A stretch of DNA of 30,969 nucleotides from IMG/VR virus record IMGVR_UViG_3300028388_001035, positions 1 through 30,969 of that record. One strand, 5' to 3'. Below, piece by piece: positions 5,608-30,969 of the stretch. Both the position numbers and the translations under genes were made by a program. Every line of letters begins with the position of its first letter. The stretch's first letter is position 1. Below the pieces are notes generated by a model. That model searched no databases. It saw nothing but the letters and a program-made list of their open reading frames with translations, and was not told where the DNA came from. The stretch is from a virus.

Positions 5608-5956
5608 AGCCCCACATAGTCAAGTACAACCTATCATCGTCATCTAGGTGTACACTGCCGTTGTTTACACCAATCCCTGTAAATTCCATCTTAATGGCTT
5701 CTTGGACCAGTTTGCGCATATGAGGGCCACGGACAAGCAAATCAACAGCTACACCCCTTGTGTGCGCACCACCACCATTAGGTTTGTTACGCTCCAAAGA
5801 ATGCGTTGTTGACCTAAAGCCACTTAGGACTACCAAAGGGAAACCTAGGCGGTGTCTAAGCTCATCCAAACGGTACAGGAAACACTCAGACATTTGGTTT
5901 TCACCAGTCTCTTTACAATCAAACTCAGACTTCTTAAAGTACTTAAGTGGTCTCAT
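5597..5956 (-). CDS. M15-family peptidase, probable endolysin, 119 aa
   Basis: The frame can be read from 6049, but residues before the ATG at 5956 look unlike a protein and overlap TerS deeply, so MRPLKYFKKSEFDC is chosen as the start. The family zinc motif of D-Ala-D-Ala or L-Ala-D-Glu peptidases is present: SGFRS at 45-49, then GAHTRGVAVD with H65 and D72, and SVHLD with H103. These enzymes cleave peptidoglycan peptide cross-links; in phages they act as endolysins or entry lysins. The protein has no signal peptide or wall-binding domain, so release would need a holin. The location between the two terminase genes, far from the holin-like gene at 29.2 kb, is notable. Confidence 0.85.
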   Translation of the reverse strand: MRPLKYFKKSEFDCKETGENQMSECFLYRLDELRHRLGFPLVVLSGFRSTTHSLERNKPNGGGAHTRGVAVDLLVRGPHMRKLVQEAIKMEFTGIGVNNGSVHLDDDDRLYLTMWGYGS

Positions 5957-6350
5957 CGGTGTACTCTGCGTCAATGGCTTCCTCTGTGGACACCTTTGTT
6001 TCTCCAACACCAGATATGTTGATCTGTATAGCGTTTCTAGCATTACCACCCTTTAGGATTTCTTTTTCAAACGCAGCCACAGGAGCTACACGGTCCATAA
6101 CAAGTTTCCAAGCTGCTGCTTGATTCTTATGCTCAGGGTCCAAAGCTGCATCAAAGATTGCATCTAGTACCTTACGTGACCTTGGGGACGCAAGCATTCT
6201 GTCCCTGTATTCATTAATTATACTTTGGACACCCTTAGGTCTACCTACGGGTCTTTTCTCTGTTTTCTTTGGAGGTCTACCTTTACGTTTATTCTTTGGT
6301 ATTTCTTCTAAGGTATTATCCTTTAATGTTTTTTCTTTAGGATTATCCAT
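5943..6350 (-). CDS. terS: Terminase small subunit-like DNA-binding protein, 135 aa
   Basis: The N-terminal 40 residues are highly basic and carry two AT-hook-like motifs (KGRPPKK and VGRPKG). They are followed by a helical region (SIINEYRDRMLASPRSRKVL... NQAAAWKLVMDRVAP) that resembles the core of small terminase subunits in marine podoviruses. It is the first gene of the leftward unit, with AAGGA 9 nt before the ATG, about 30 nt after the predicted transcription start of the perfect sigma-70 promoter at 6390-6418. The small subunit would recognise the packaging site and load TerL. Assignment rests on position and text resemblance; a general DNA-binding regulator is the main alternative. Confidence 0.75.
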   Translation of the reverse strand: MDNPKEKTLKDNTLEEIPKNKRKGRPPKKTEKRPVGRPKGVQSIINEYRDRMLASPRSRKVLDAIFDAALDPEHKNQAAAWKLVMDRVAPVAAFEKEILKGGNARNAIQINISGVGETKVSTEEAIDAEYTDETT

Positions 6351-6389
6351 TTTAGGGGTCCTTAAATTCTTTGCTACACTAATGTTATT

Positions 6390-6418
6390 ATTATAACATA
6401 TTTTTTTGCAAATGTCAA
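6390..6418 (-). promoter_or_regulatory. Consensus sigma-70 promoter for the leftward (late) unit
   Basis: On the minus strand the sequence reads TTGACA (6418-6413), exactly 17 bp, then TATAAT (6395-6390). Both hexamers and the spacing are perfect, and the spacer is A-rich. Transcription would start near 6383, leaving about a 30-nt leader before terS. The promoter is expected to be strong with host RNA polymerase, so late timing must come from repression or DNA topology rather than promoter weakness. Confidence 0.85.
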
Positions 6419-6438
6419 GTCTTTTTTTGGTGCGCCCT

Positions 6439-6467
6439 TTTACCCCTTCGCTGCGCTCAGGGGTAAA
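6439..6467. repeat. 9-bp inverted repeat with 11-nt loop
   Basis: TTTACCCCT (6439-6447) and AGGGGTAAA (6459-6467) are perfect complements. The loop contains a nested CGC-T-GCG inverted repeat. There is no T-run immediately after the stem on either strand, so an intrinsic terminator is unlikely. It lies just upstream of the leftward promoter and beside AT-rich DNA, so a protein-binding site or a cruciform involved in origin function is possible. Confidence 0.6.
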
Positions 6468-6527
6468 CCATTGTTTAGATTACAGTTTTATTAATTTGAA
6501 CTTTGGGTATTTTTTCTGAATTTTCCG

Positions 6528-6560
6528 TCTAGTAAACCTAATTTACCTTCTAGTAAACCT
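6528..6560. repeat. Two 12-bp direct repeats at 21-bp spacing in AT-rich DNA
   Basis: TCTAGTAAACCT occurs at 6528-6539 and again at 6549-6560, starts 21 bp apart, i.e. two helical turns. The core GTAAACC also occurs at 6463-6469 in the arm of the inverted repeat, and a related AGTAAACT is at 6586-6593. Same-face spacing suggests binding by a dimer or by cooperating monomers. Confidence 0.6.
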
Positions 6561-6610
6561 GAGTGGCAGCACCTTAGTTACCATAAGTAAACTCCCCCCC
6601 CCGGGGTACC

Positions 6611-6619
6611 TGTGGATAA
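6611..6619 (-). promoter_or_regulatory. DnaA box (perfect TTATCCACA)
   Basis: TGTGGATAA on the plus strand is the complement of TTATCCACA, the strongest known DnaA box of E. coli-type origins. It lies between the AT-rich segment and the repeat arrays. A single 9-mer match could arise by chance, but two further boxes lie about 160 bp away in the same orientation. Confidence 0.65.
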
Positions 6620-6646
6620 CTTTACAGCTATGCAACAAGTTTCATA

Positions 6647-6767
6647 GGTGTCAAATGTGGCCAAGGTTCCATTGTGACACTTAGGGGTGTCAAATGTGGC
6701 CAAGGTTCCAAAGTGACACTCAAGGGTTCCAAAGTGACACTCAAGGGTTCCAAAGTGACACTCAAGG
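6647..6767. repeat. 21-bp repeat family (three exact copies plus a diverged one)
   Basis: A 21-bp unit starting GTTCCAAAGTGACAC is repeated exactly and without gaps at 6705-6725, 6726-6746 and 6747-6767. A diverged copy (GTTCCATTGTGACAC) is at 6666-6686. Upstream, a longer unit beginning GGTGTCAAATGTGGCCAAGG is present at 6647 and 6686, offset by 39 bp. Each unit contains TGACAC, and GTGTCA also occurs in inverted orientation (6649-6654 against 6675-6680). The 21-bp period is two helical turns, as expected for sites bound on one DNA face by an initiator or repressor. Confidence 0.85.
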
Positions 6768-6776
6768 GTTGAGTTG

Positions 6777-6795
6777 TGTGTATAAGTGTGTATAA
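6777..6795 (-). promoter_or_regulatory. Two tandem DnaA-box matches, 10 bp apart
   Basis: TGTGTATAA occurs at 6777-6785 and 6787-6795. The complement TTATACACA fits the DnaA box consensus TTATNCACA. Both have the same orientation and nearly one helical turn of spacing, and match the orientation of the perfect box at 6611-6619. They sit between the 21-bp repeats and the 11-bp iterons. Confidence 0.6.
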
Positions 6796-6817
6796 GTGTG
6801 TGCCAATGTGGTACCCC

Positions 6818-6960
6818 ATAGGTTGCACATAGGTTGCACATAGGTTGCACATAGGTTGCACATAGGTTGCACCTAGGTTGCACATAGGTTGCACCTAGGT
6901 TGCACATAGGTTGCACCTAGGTTGCACATAGGTTGCACCTAGGTTGCACCTAGGTTGCAC
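6818..6960. repeat. Iteron array: 13 tandem copies of an 11-bp unit
   Basis: The 143 bp are exactly 13 x 11 bp of (A/C)TAGGTTGCAC with no insertions or deletions. Only the first base varies: units 1-5 have A, then C, A, C, A, C, A, C, C. Where the unit starts with C, the junction forms the palindrome ACCTAGGT. An 11-bp period keeps all units nearly on one face of the helix, as in iterons bound by replication initiators. The array stops 26 bp before the -35 of the rightward promoter. Peptide readings through it are periodic repeats of the same few residues on both strands and are not taken as genes. Confidence 0.92.
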
Positions 6961-6986
6961 AACATATGAATTTTTTGTTACACCTC

Positions 6987-7014
6987 TTGCATTCCCCGAT
7001 TGTTTGGCTATACT
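6987..7014 (+). promoter_or_regulatory. Sigma-70 promoter for the rightward (early) unit
   Basis: TTGCAT (6987-6992), 16-bp spacer, TATACT (7009-7014). Each hexamer is 5 of 6 to TTGACA or TATAAT. The start would be near 7021, giving about a 100-nt leader before the ATG at 7123. Adjacent is TCCATGGA (7018-7025), a short palindrome that could be an operator. The iteron array lies directly upstream, so the binding protein could affect this promoter. Confidence 0.7.
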
Positions 7015-7122
7015 GTGTCCATGGATAGGGAGGGAACACCCAGCAATACTAGGACTTGTTTGCTTGCACAATTGTGGGCGCTGTGGTATTGCTGTACGCA
7101 AAGCAACGCGGAGGGAAGACAA

Positions 7123-7509
7123 ATGAACTACGACACACTGCGCACCCAAATACTTGAGCGCAACCCTAGGGACCGTGGCTTCTGTGGTCCTTTGGCCATC
7201 GCGGCAGTCACCGGGCTACACGCCGGAGACGTGGCGGAATACGTCAAAGACAAACGAGAGAAGAAGAGAGGAGGAATGACTGGAAGTGCAGTACTGTCCA
7301 CCGTCCAACGTTTGACAGGGCACGCGCCTACCTTGGTCGAAGATTCACGGGTCAAAACACCCATATCTGCTGCTAGAAACTTGCCAAAGGGTACATATTT
7401 GTGTTTCACTAGAAATCATGCGTTTGCAGTGGTCGATGGAAAAGTAGTAGACTGGGCCGAAGACAGACAATTCCGCATTACTCATATATTCAAAGTACAC
7501 GGAGTGTAG
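7123..7509 (+). CDS. Putative papain-like cysteine peptidase, first early gene, 128 aa
   Basis: The ATG at 7123 is chosen because GCGGAGGGA lies 7-8 nt upstream; the frame is open further up, with an in-frame ATG at 7021. The text fits a minimal papain-like (C39 or transglutaminase-like) fold: a Cys at the start of a helix, GFCGPLAIAAVTG with C21, then after a basic segment a strand-like NHAFAVVDG with H99, and VVDWAED with D110 as possible third residue. Such Cys-His-Asp order is the family's catalytic arrangement. As the first gene after the early promoter it would be made first, so processing of a host protein or counter-defence is a reasonable guess. No close family name is recognised. 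Confidence 0.72.
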   Translation: MNYDTLRTQILERNPRDRGFCGPLAIAAVTGLHAGDVAEYVKDKREKKRGGMTGSAVLSTVQRLTGHAPTLVEDSRVKTPISAARNLPKGTYLCFTRNHAFAVVDGKVVDWAEDRQFRITHIFKVHGV

Positions 7510-7512
7510 ACA

Positions 7513-8184
7513 ATGGGTTACCTAGCATTCGGAAATGACAGCAAAACAGTGAAGGGTGAGACGGAAGGTGTGATGACCGGCATGCTATACCTCATACCGG
7601 ACGACACGTTGTGTCCCATGGCTCGCACTGCTGGGTGCCGTGATGCTTGTTTGGTGACGGCTGGGCGCGGTAGAAGGACCAACGTCAAAGCGGGACGTTT
7701 GCGCAAAACACAAGAGTACTACACTGACCCTGTAGCATTTGTGGACACGTTGAGCCGTGAAATAACTTTGGCCCAGCGTAGGGCAGAGCGCAAGGGCATG
7801 ACGTTGGCTATTCGTTTGAATGGTACCTCGGACATACCTTGGGAACACAAGCGTGGCAGTGGTGGCATGACGTTGATGGATATGCACCCTGATGTGCAAT
7901 TCTATGACTACACCAAGCTACCGACGCGAAAAGTACCCAAAAATTACCATTTGACAGTTAGCTACAGCGCAGCAAATTCAAAATATGCACAAAAAGCGCT
8001 TGACAGTGGCCACAACGTTGCTGTAGTATTCCGTCACAAGTCAGATATACCTAGAACCTTTGGTGGTCGCAAGGTAATCGACGGTGATAAAACTGATCTG
8101 CGGTTTACCGATCCAAAGGGCGTAGTAGTAGCGCTGTACGCCAAAGGTACAGCTAAACATGACACAACGGGGTTTGTACAATGA
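7513..8184 (+). CDS. GP88-family phage protein, 223 aa
   Basis: The sequence resembles the phage 'gene product 88' family, whose function is unknown. Key text is the cysteine cluster C34-X7-C42-X3-C46 (LCPMARTAGCRDACLVTAGRG), a conserved basic helix (NVKAGRLRKTQEYY), a long helix (FVDTLSREITLAQRRAERKG) and AIRLNGTSDIPWE. The Cys cluster followed by a regular strand-helix order suggests a metal- or cluster-binding barrel, somewhat like phage Gp37/Gp68 (DUF5131) proteins; that link is my inference. It starts 3 bp after the peptidase-like gene, with GGAG upstream, so both are co-expressed at once on infection. Its stop overlaps the next start (ATGA). Confidence 0.75.
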   Translation: MGYLAFGNDSKTVKGETEGVMTGMLYLIPDDTLCPMARTAGCRDACLVTAGRGRRTNVKAGRLRKTQEYYTDPVAFVDTLSREITLAQRRAERKGMTLAIRLNGTSDIPWEHKRGSGGMTLMDMHPDVQFYDYTKLPTRKVPKNYHLTVSYSAANSKYAQKALDSGHNVAVVFRHKSDIPRTFGGRKVIDGDKTDLRFTDPKGVVVALYAKGTAKHDTTGFVQ

Positions 8185-30918: not shown

Positions 30919-30969
30919 TCAGCGAGTCATGTTATGGTCGAAACTCACCTTGTCGGCAGCGTGGAAGCC
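30919..30969 (-). CDS. C-terminal end of a gene cut by the right edge
   Basis: Only one minus-strand frame runs from the right edge for 16 residues (GFHAADKVSFDHNMTR) to a TGA; the other two are stopped within about 12 codons. The residues could be the C-terminus of a structural gene lying mostly outside the window. With so few residues, the identity cannot be given. Confidence 0.35.
   Translation of the reverse strand, partial: GFHAADKVSFDHNMTR

Follow-up and report, generated by a model that had tools for sequence, protein, structure and literature searches.

Phages of the cobavirus/Zobellviridae group (ICBM1, SIO1, VpV262 and RIO-1) combine T7-like core genes in two divergent blocks with a gap that carries the direct terminal repeat (DTR), and they have no phage RNA polymerase, as tested for SIO1. 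The DTRs of cobavirus ICBM1 were found with PacBio reads, and a conserved G+C-rich 5' end was noted for all cobaviral DTRs (PMC6775973). In alphaproteobacterial phages, the sites of the host cell-cycle regulator CtrA concentrate in DTRs or gaps and act on transcription, and no positional asymmetry was found for DnaA in the phages of the same analysis, which covered 499 genomes (PMC9437464). DnaA boxes are known from the DnaA-dependent bacterial origin, where a GC-rich spacer and AT-rich DNA adjoin them and a DnaA-trio spacing rule applies to the basal unwinding system (PMC8287927), and from datA-type titration sites, where they are clustered outside oriC. The T7 primary origin (phi1.1A/B) is a further point of comparison for any phage with a T7-like polymerase and primase-helicase.

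The window analysed here is an IMG/VR viral record of 30,969 bp, classed as linear, from an uncultured T7-like phage. An earlier note proposed the gap between its two gene blocks as a candidate replication origin with DnaA boxes and two families of iterons. The boxes are indeed clustered, and boxes recur at the syntenic position in about a quarter of the relatives, so that the cluster is not peculiar to this contig. The GC skew, the conserved core of the gap, the arrays for other regulators in the relatives and the lack of a link to the type of replisome speak against the origin reading, and the gap looks more like a genome-end region engaging host regulators than a proven replication origin.

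Gene blocks and features of the gap

The leftward block of the window encodes portal, terminase and endolysin proteins together with a 135-aa product, and the rightward block encodes a GP88 protein, a gp2.5-like protein, primase-helicase, family-A DNA polymerase, Cas4-type exonuclease, endonuclease I, MazG and ribonucleotide reductase. The 135-aa product had no Pfam or PHROG match, and neither a match to its gene nor a close TerL was found among phage isolates. The features of the gap and its borders are the following.

5943-6350, minus strand: gene of the 135-aa product at the left border of the gap; it is conserved together with the terminase block and, by position alone, small-terminase-like
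6351-7122: intergenic gap from which the two blocks diverge, terminase/structural to the left and early/replication to the right; delimited by ORFs and syntenic in relatives
6390-6418, minus strand: sigma-70 promoter of the leftward block, a perfect TTGACA-17-TATAAT
6439-6467: 9-bp inverted repeat TTTACCCCT/AGGGGTAAA (arms 6439-6447 and 6459-6467), a weak hairpin
6519-6560, plus strand: two 21-bp repeats in AT-rich DNA
6550-6606, plus strand: conserved core, CTAGTAAACCTGAGTGGCAGCACC followed by a C9G4 tract (6594-6606), the probable packaging terminus by analogy
6611-6619, minus strand: DnaA box TTATCCACA; the C run ends 8 bp away
6647-6770, plus strand: direct repeats of 39 bp (two copies) and 21 bp (three copies) (GGTTCCAAAGTGACACTCAAG)
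6777-6785, minus strand: DnaA box TTATACACA, in a 10-bp tandem repeat
6787-6795, minus strand: DnaA box TTATACACA, in the same 10-bp tandem repeat
6817-6961, plus strand: 13 tandem 11-bp iterons CATAGGTTGCA / CCTAGGTTGCA (13.2 copies)
7123-8184, plus strand: first two early genes, a 128-aa ORF and a GP88-family protein (PF17338)

The inverted repeat, the 21-bp repeats and the 13 iterons are all where the earlier note had placed them; the sigma-70 promoter and the C9G4 tract it had missed. No intrinsic terminator was called at the inverted repeat, and its hairpin is not T-tailed. The 21-bp repeats at 6704-6770 sit inside the 39-bp family at 6647-6769. The description of the region as AT-rich is correct for positions 6300-6399 (74-76% AT) and 6500-6549 (70%), but the part with the boxes and iterons (6600-6950) has a genome-like 50-60%. 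AT-rich DNA by the gap is retained in the relatives regardless of the type of array that they carry.

Some relatives are self-closing, at a length of about 36 kb (e.g. G011 and G035), and the window contig is therefore probably incomplete, several kb of the structural block being missing between positions 30,969 and 1. A search of bacterial genomes with TerL for the host gave one match, on a 7.5-kb contig in a MAG, which was uninformative. The predicted gamma-type LexA, Fur and sigma-54/NtrC sites of the relatives suggest a host among the Gammaproteobacteria or their near kin.

DnaA boxes in the window and its relatives

The motif TTATNCACA is matched in the whole window only three times, all within 6611-6795 and on the minus strand (TGTGGATAA read at 6611-6619, TGTGTATAA at 6777-6785 and 6787-6795), which confirms the three boxes of one orientation on which the origin proposal was based. 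Their total is unremarkable, with 1.13 expected and three reached in 12 of 100 shuffles. The unusual part is their clustering: three boxes within 185 bp occurred in none of 1500 order-1 Markov shuffles and two within 185 bp in 10 of 1500. The boxes at 6777 and 6787 represent one event because they are copies of one 10-bp tandem repeat (GTGTGTATAA, 2.6 copies), which leaves the strength of the case within the window sequence alone moderate.

Loci were fetched from IMG/VR with the 135-aa gene, TerL, GP88 and the polymerase as queries; about 160 share the same junction, and removal of redundant gaps left 97 non-redundant syntenic gaps. Over the syntenic loci the density of DnaA boxes is 1.07/kb in the 1.2-kb stretch that follows the 135-aa gene versus 0.049/kb elsewhere. 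The 97 gaps contain 109 boxes, as against 4.8 in shuffles and 44 in elevenfold larger flanking DNA; boxes are 29 times denser in the gaps than in the flanks. Two or more boxes are present in 25 of the 97 gaps, some of which are mutually related and correspond therefore to fewer than 25 independent events. DnaA boxes are a true feature of the clade, in a minority of its members.

The spacings between boxes in the relatives' gaps peak at 11-12 bp and about 22 bp. In 16 of the 25 gaps the first box lies within 11 bp of the conserved core, where 1.25 would be expected, and this proximity is tighter than for the arrays of other regulators, which hints at a DnaA-specific role. The predicted early promoter follows the boxes at a median distance of 202 bp, which is far for simple promoter control and is not the position of an ordinary repressor. 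At least 120 IMG/VR stretches (L313-L431) have two DnaA boxes 11 bp apart, and in L349, L350, L360 and L414, which are outside the syntenic set, a C tract also adjoins the boxes. The isolates ICBM1, SIO1, VpV262 and RIO-1 gave no DnaA-box cluster.

The conserved core and the probable packaging terminus

A T-run, a word resembling GTGGCTACTACA and a tract of the kind of CCCCCTCCCCCC are common to most gaps of the relatives, and the same T-rich element and C tract are present in the window's gap beside the terminase genes. The C tract was found in 79 of 96 gaps, compared with 15% of control windows, and a T-run lies upstream of it in 66 of 71. The SIO1 gap also has both elements, and the DTR of ICBM1 starts inside a like arrangement, at the junction of atatttttgtgt and GTTGTACATACAGCAGGCCACCCCCTAACCCCCC. 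By analogy with ICBM1, a distant relative, the core is probably a packaging terminus and would form the left end of a DTR in the window phage. The core accompanies the terminase side while the replication genes vary between a T7-like and a DUF1376/helicase module, and this makes a packaging terminus likelier than a part of a replicator.

The relative G008 (L450, 5219-6813) has the same terminase junction with the replication module swapped beside the constant core; it carries five DnaA boxes at the core and a DUF1376 primosomal-type protein with a helicase, and a DNA polymerase was not detected. The contig L031 (1-45) begins exactly inside the core (GGATACTATAATAATC...CCCCTCCCCGCCC), as would be expected of a physical end at this place. 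A pile-up of contig ends in the gap was considered as proof of physical ends and is not decisive, being biased by selection and repeats; the self-closing relatives do not locate the position of the ends either.

Arrays for other host regulators beyond the core

Beyond the core, each lineage carries arrays of its own. A panel of motifs run over the 97 gaps gave candidate sites for DnaA, sigma-54, LexA, Fur and NtrC. The matches are motif-specific: 61 sigma-54 sites have the correct spacing, a count that falls to zero when the spacing is shortened or lengthened by one base, and the gamma-type LexA motif CTGT-N8-ACAG gives 32 sites, compared with 0-2 for N7 or N9 and 0-1 for the alpha and Gram-positive types. 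No multi-site pattern in the gaps was found for CRP, FNR, ArgR, PhoB or CtrA, control motifs showed no enrichment, and 44 of the 97 gaps hold none of the tested regulator motifs. The window itself has no sigma-54 site. Sigma-54, LexA, Fur and NtrC do not initiate replication, and the slot that their putative sites occupy is therefore not, as such, an origin slot.

Several of these arrays are worth describing individually. Near-perfect tandem -24/-12 sigma-54 arrays (TTGGCACGNNNNTTGCAT) are present in L183, L234, L241, L205-L210, L198 and L164, with up to eight sites per gap, beyond the core and mostly oriented toward the early genes. LexA-type boxes lie in the gaps of L263, L215, L181, L286-L309 and L276, and in the L286-L309 subgroup such a box is about 30 bp upstream of the sigma-70-type promoter of the early genes. 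The L273 gap has four matches to the NtrC palindrome GCACCNNNNTGGTGC (both strands counted) in addition to sigma-54 sites, which is the layout of a nitrogen-control promoter on a phage. Fur-like sites (AATGAGAATCATT and variants) occur in the L100, L270, L272 and L273 gaps, in tandem in L100. In the Vibrio phage VpV262 (L479, about 170-325), four sigma-54-like sites (TGGCACGAAGTATGCT and similar) were recognised by eye, directly after the annotated terminal repeat of this isolated phage.

Origin function and neutral repeats as alternatives

Under the origin hypothesis, host DnaA would bind the boxes and open the AT-rich DNA on the far side of the C tract; the primase-helicase of the phage would load on the strand thus exposed, and the T7-like replisome would start there. 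We regard this as the main rival reading, possible but less likely than not. DnaA-assisted initiation comes into consideration because the DnaA arrays are helically phased and lie nearer to the core than any others. The boxes are of consensus type and clustered, and the flank is AT-rich. A T7-type start by transcription also finds no counterpart here: a search for PF00940, the phage RNA polymerase, gave nothing in the window and 39 relatives, whose records are fragments, or in SIO1 and HTVC104P, and the same search detected the enzyme in the controls T7 and CRP-804. The window, in this respect as the earlier note had described it, thereby differs from the T7 primary origin while sharing the T7-like polymerase and primase-helicase. 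In the L286-L309 subgroup 3-6 boxes adjoin the core, and some members (G008, L286 and L288) carry the DUF1376 'primosomal' protein with a helicase.

Against an origin stands the variable presence of the array, which is absent from 72 of the 97 relatives, many of them with the same replisome. The array is not linked to the type of replisome, being present in 5 of 18 relatives with the T7-like type versus 6 of 23 others. The switch of GC skew that the earlier note put forward as a check does fall in the gap, with the cumulative minimum at 6602, where gene direction also changes, and several long relatives have their minimum in the gap too. The skew, however, is located in codon position 1 (0.27 and 0.34), and the coding-strand skew at fourfold sites (+0.035 in the right arm, -0.094 in the left) has no leading-strand bias; we have rejected it as evidence of replication. 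In the 16 bp next to the proximal box, inspection of the window by eye revealed no run of DnaA-trios. The likeness to a bacterial origin consists of boxes adjoined by a GC-rich spacer and AT-rich DNA and does not include the trio at the required spacing or a replication-type skew. The boxes of the window also have the orientation opposite to that of most relatives.

It is improbable, in our estimate, that the gap is a packaging terminus alone, with neutral tandem repeats of which the DnaA-like words are expansion by-products. Phage terminal repeat regions are often repeat-rich, and two of the three boxes stem from one 10-bp tandem duplication, but in several divergent lineages the same 9-bp word stands equally far from the core while the sequence around it is unlike, and the motifs of other regulators have exact functional spacing. 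A pSC101- or P1-like origin, with a phage initiator bound to the 11-bp or 21-bp repeats and DnaA assisting it, would account for two dense iteron families plus DnaA boxes in one gap and might use one of the many small early proteins that have no assigned function, but it is the least probable of these readings: just as the earlier note saw no obvious iteron-binding initiator, the proteins searched gave no match to an initiator family in PHROGs or Pfam, and the iterons are not conserved (their exact sequence recurs in only two IMG/VR contigs, both without matches to the window genes). The 21-bp repeat at 6647-6770 has no other exact match in IMG/VR.

A proposed genome-end region with host-regulator arrays

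The reading we prefer, and to which we would give an even chance, is that the gap is a genome-end region composed of a packaging core and swappable arrays for host regulators, DnaA being the regulator here. Its left layer (about 6550-6606), the T-rich element and C tract that stay with the terminase genes, would mark the packaging terminus. The right layer (6611-6961), which adjoins the core and precedes the early genes, would be a slot for tandem arrays whose sites belong to a different DNA-binding protein from lineage to lineage, with DnaA boxes plus two families of iterons in the window and sigma-54, LexA, Fur or NtrC sites in relatives. The arrays may hold host regulators at the genome end that carries the early genes. 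This could tie early infection to the state of the host, here its replication status via DnaA, or could titrate the host regulator. The sequences show the clustering of the sites, a conserved slot and core, and the specificity of the motifs, from which we infer that proteins bind, where the terminus of this phage lies, and that transcription or host DnaA is affected. Points against this reading are the distance of the boxes from the early promoter, the 44 gaps without a tested motif, the lack of a sigma-54 site in the window, iterons that match no known regulator, and the closer approach of DnaA arrays to the core. Titration would resemble datA-type sites in the clustering of DnaA boxes outside oriC and differ from them in that the cluster is on a phage and its effect on host DnaA is conjectural. 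A more general proposal, that this large clade of uncultured T7-like phages without RNA polymerase has beside its terminus a swappable slot in which each lineage arrays another global regulator of the host, we put forward tentatively, with somewhat less confidence. The nearest precedent is provided by the CtrA clusters, in which host-regulator sites are likewise strongly concentrated in the DTR or gap; the putative sites differ in being for DnaA in the window and for sigma-54, LexA, Fur and NtrC in the relatives.

From this point of view, a gap that concentrates host-regulator sites beside a probable packaging end offers a concrete and testable entry point to how early transcription and replication begin in T7-like phages without an RNA polymerase of their own. 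It would extend the idea shown for CtrA to DnaA, sigma-54, LexA and Fur. If DnaA opens the DNA in the gap, the T7-like replisome would have a start driven by the host initiator. If the proposed role of the slot is true, the end of the genome would on entry read or sequester the state of the host in replication, nitrogen, SOS response or iron.
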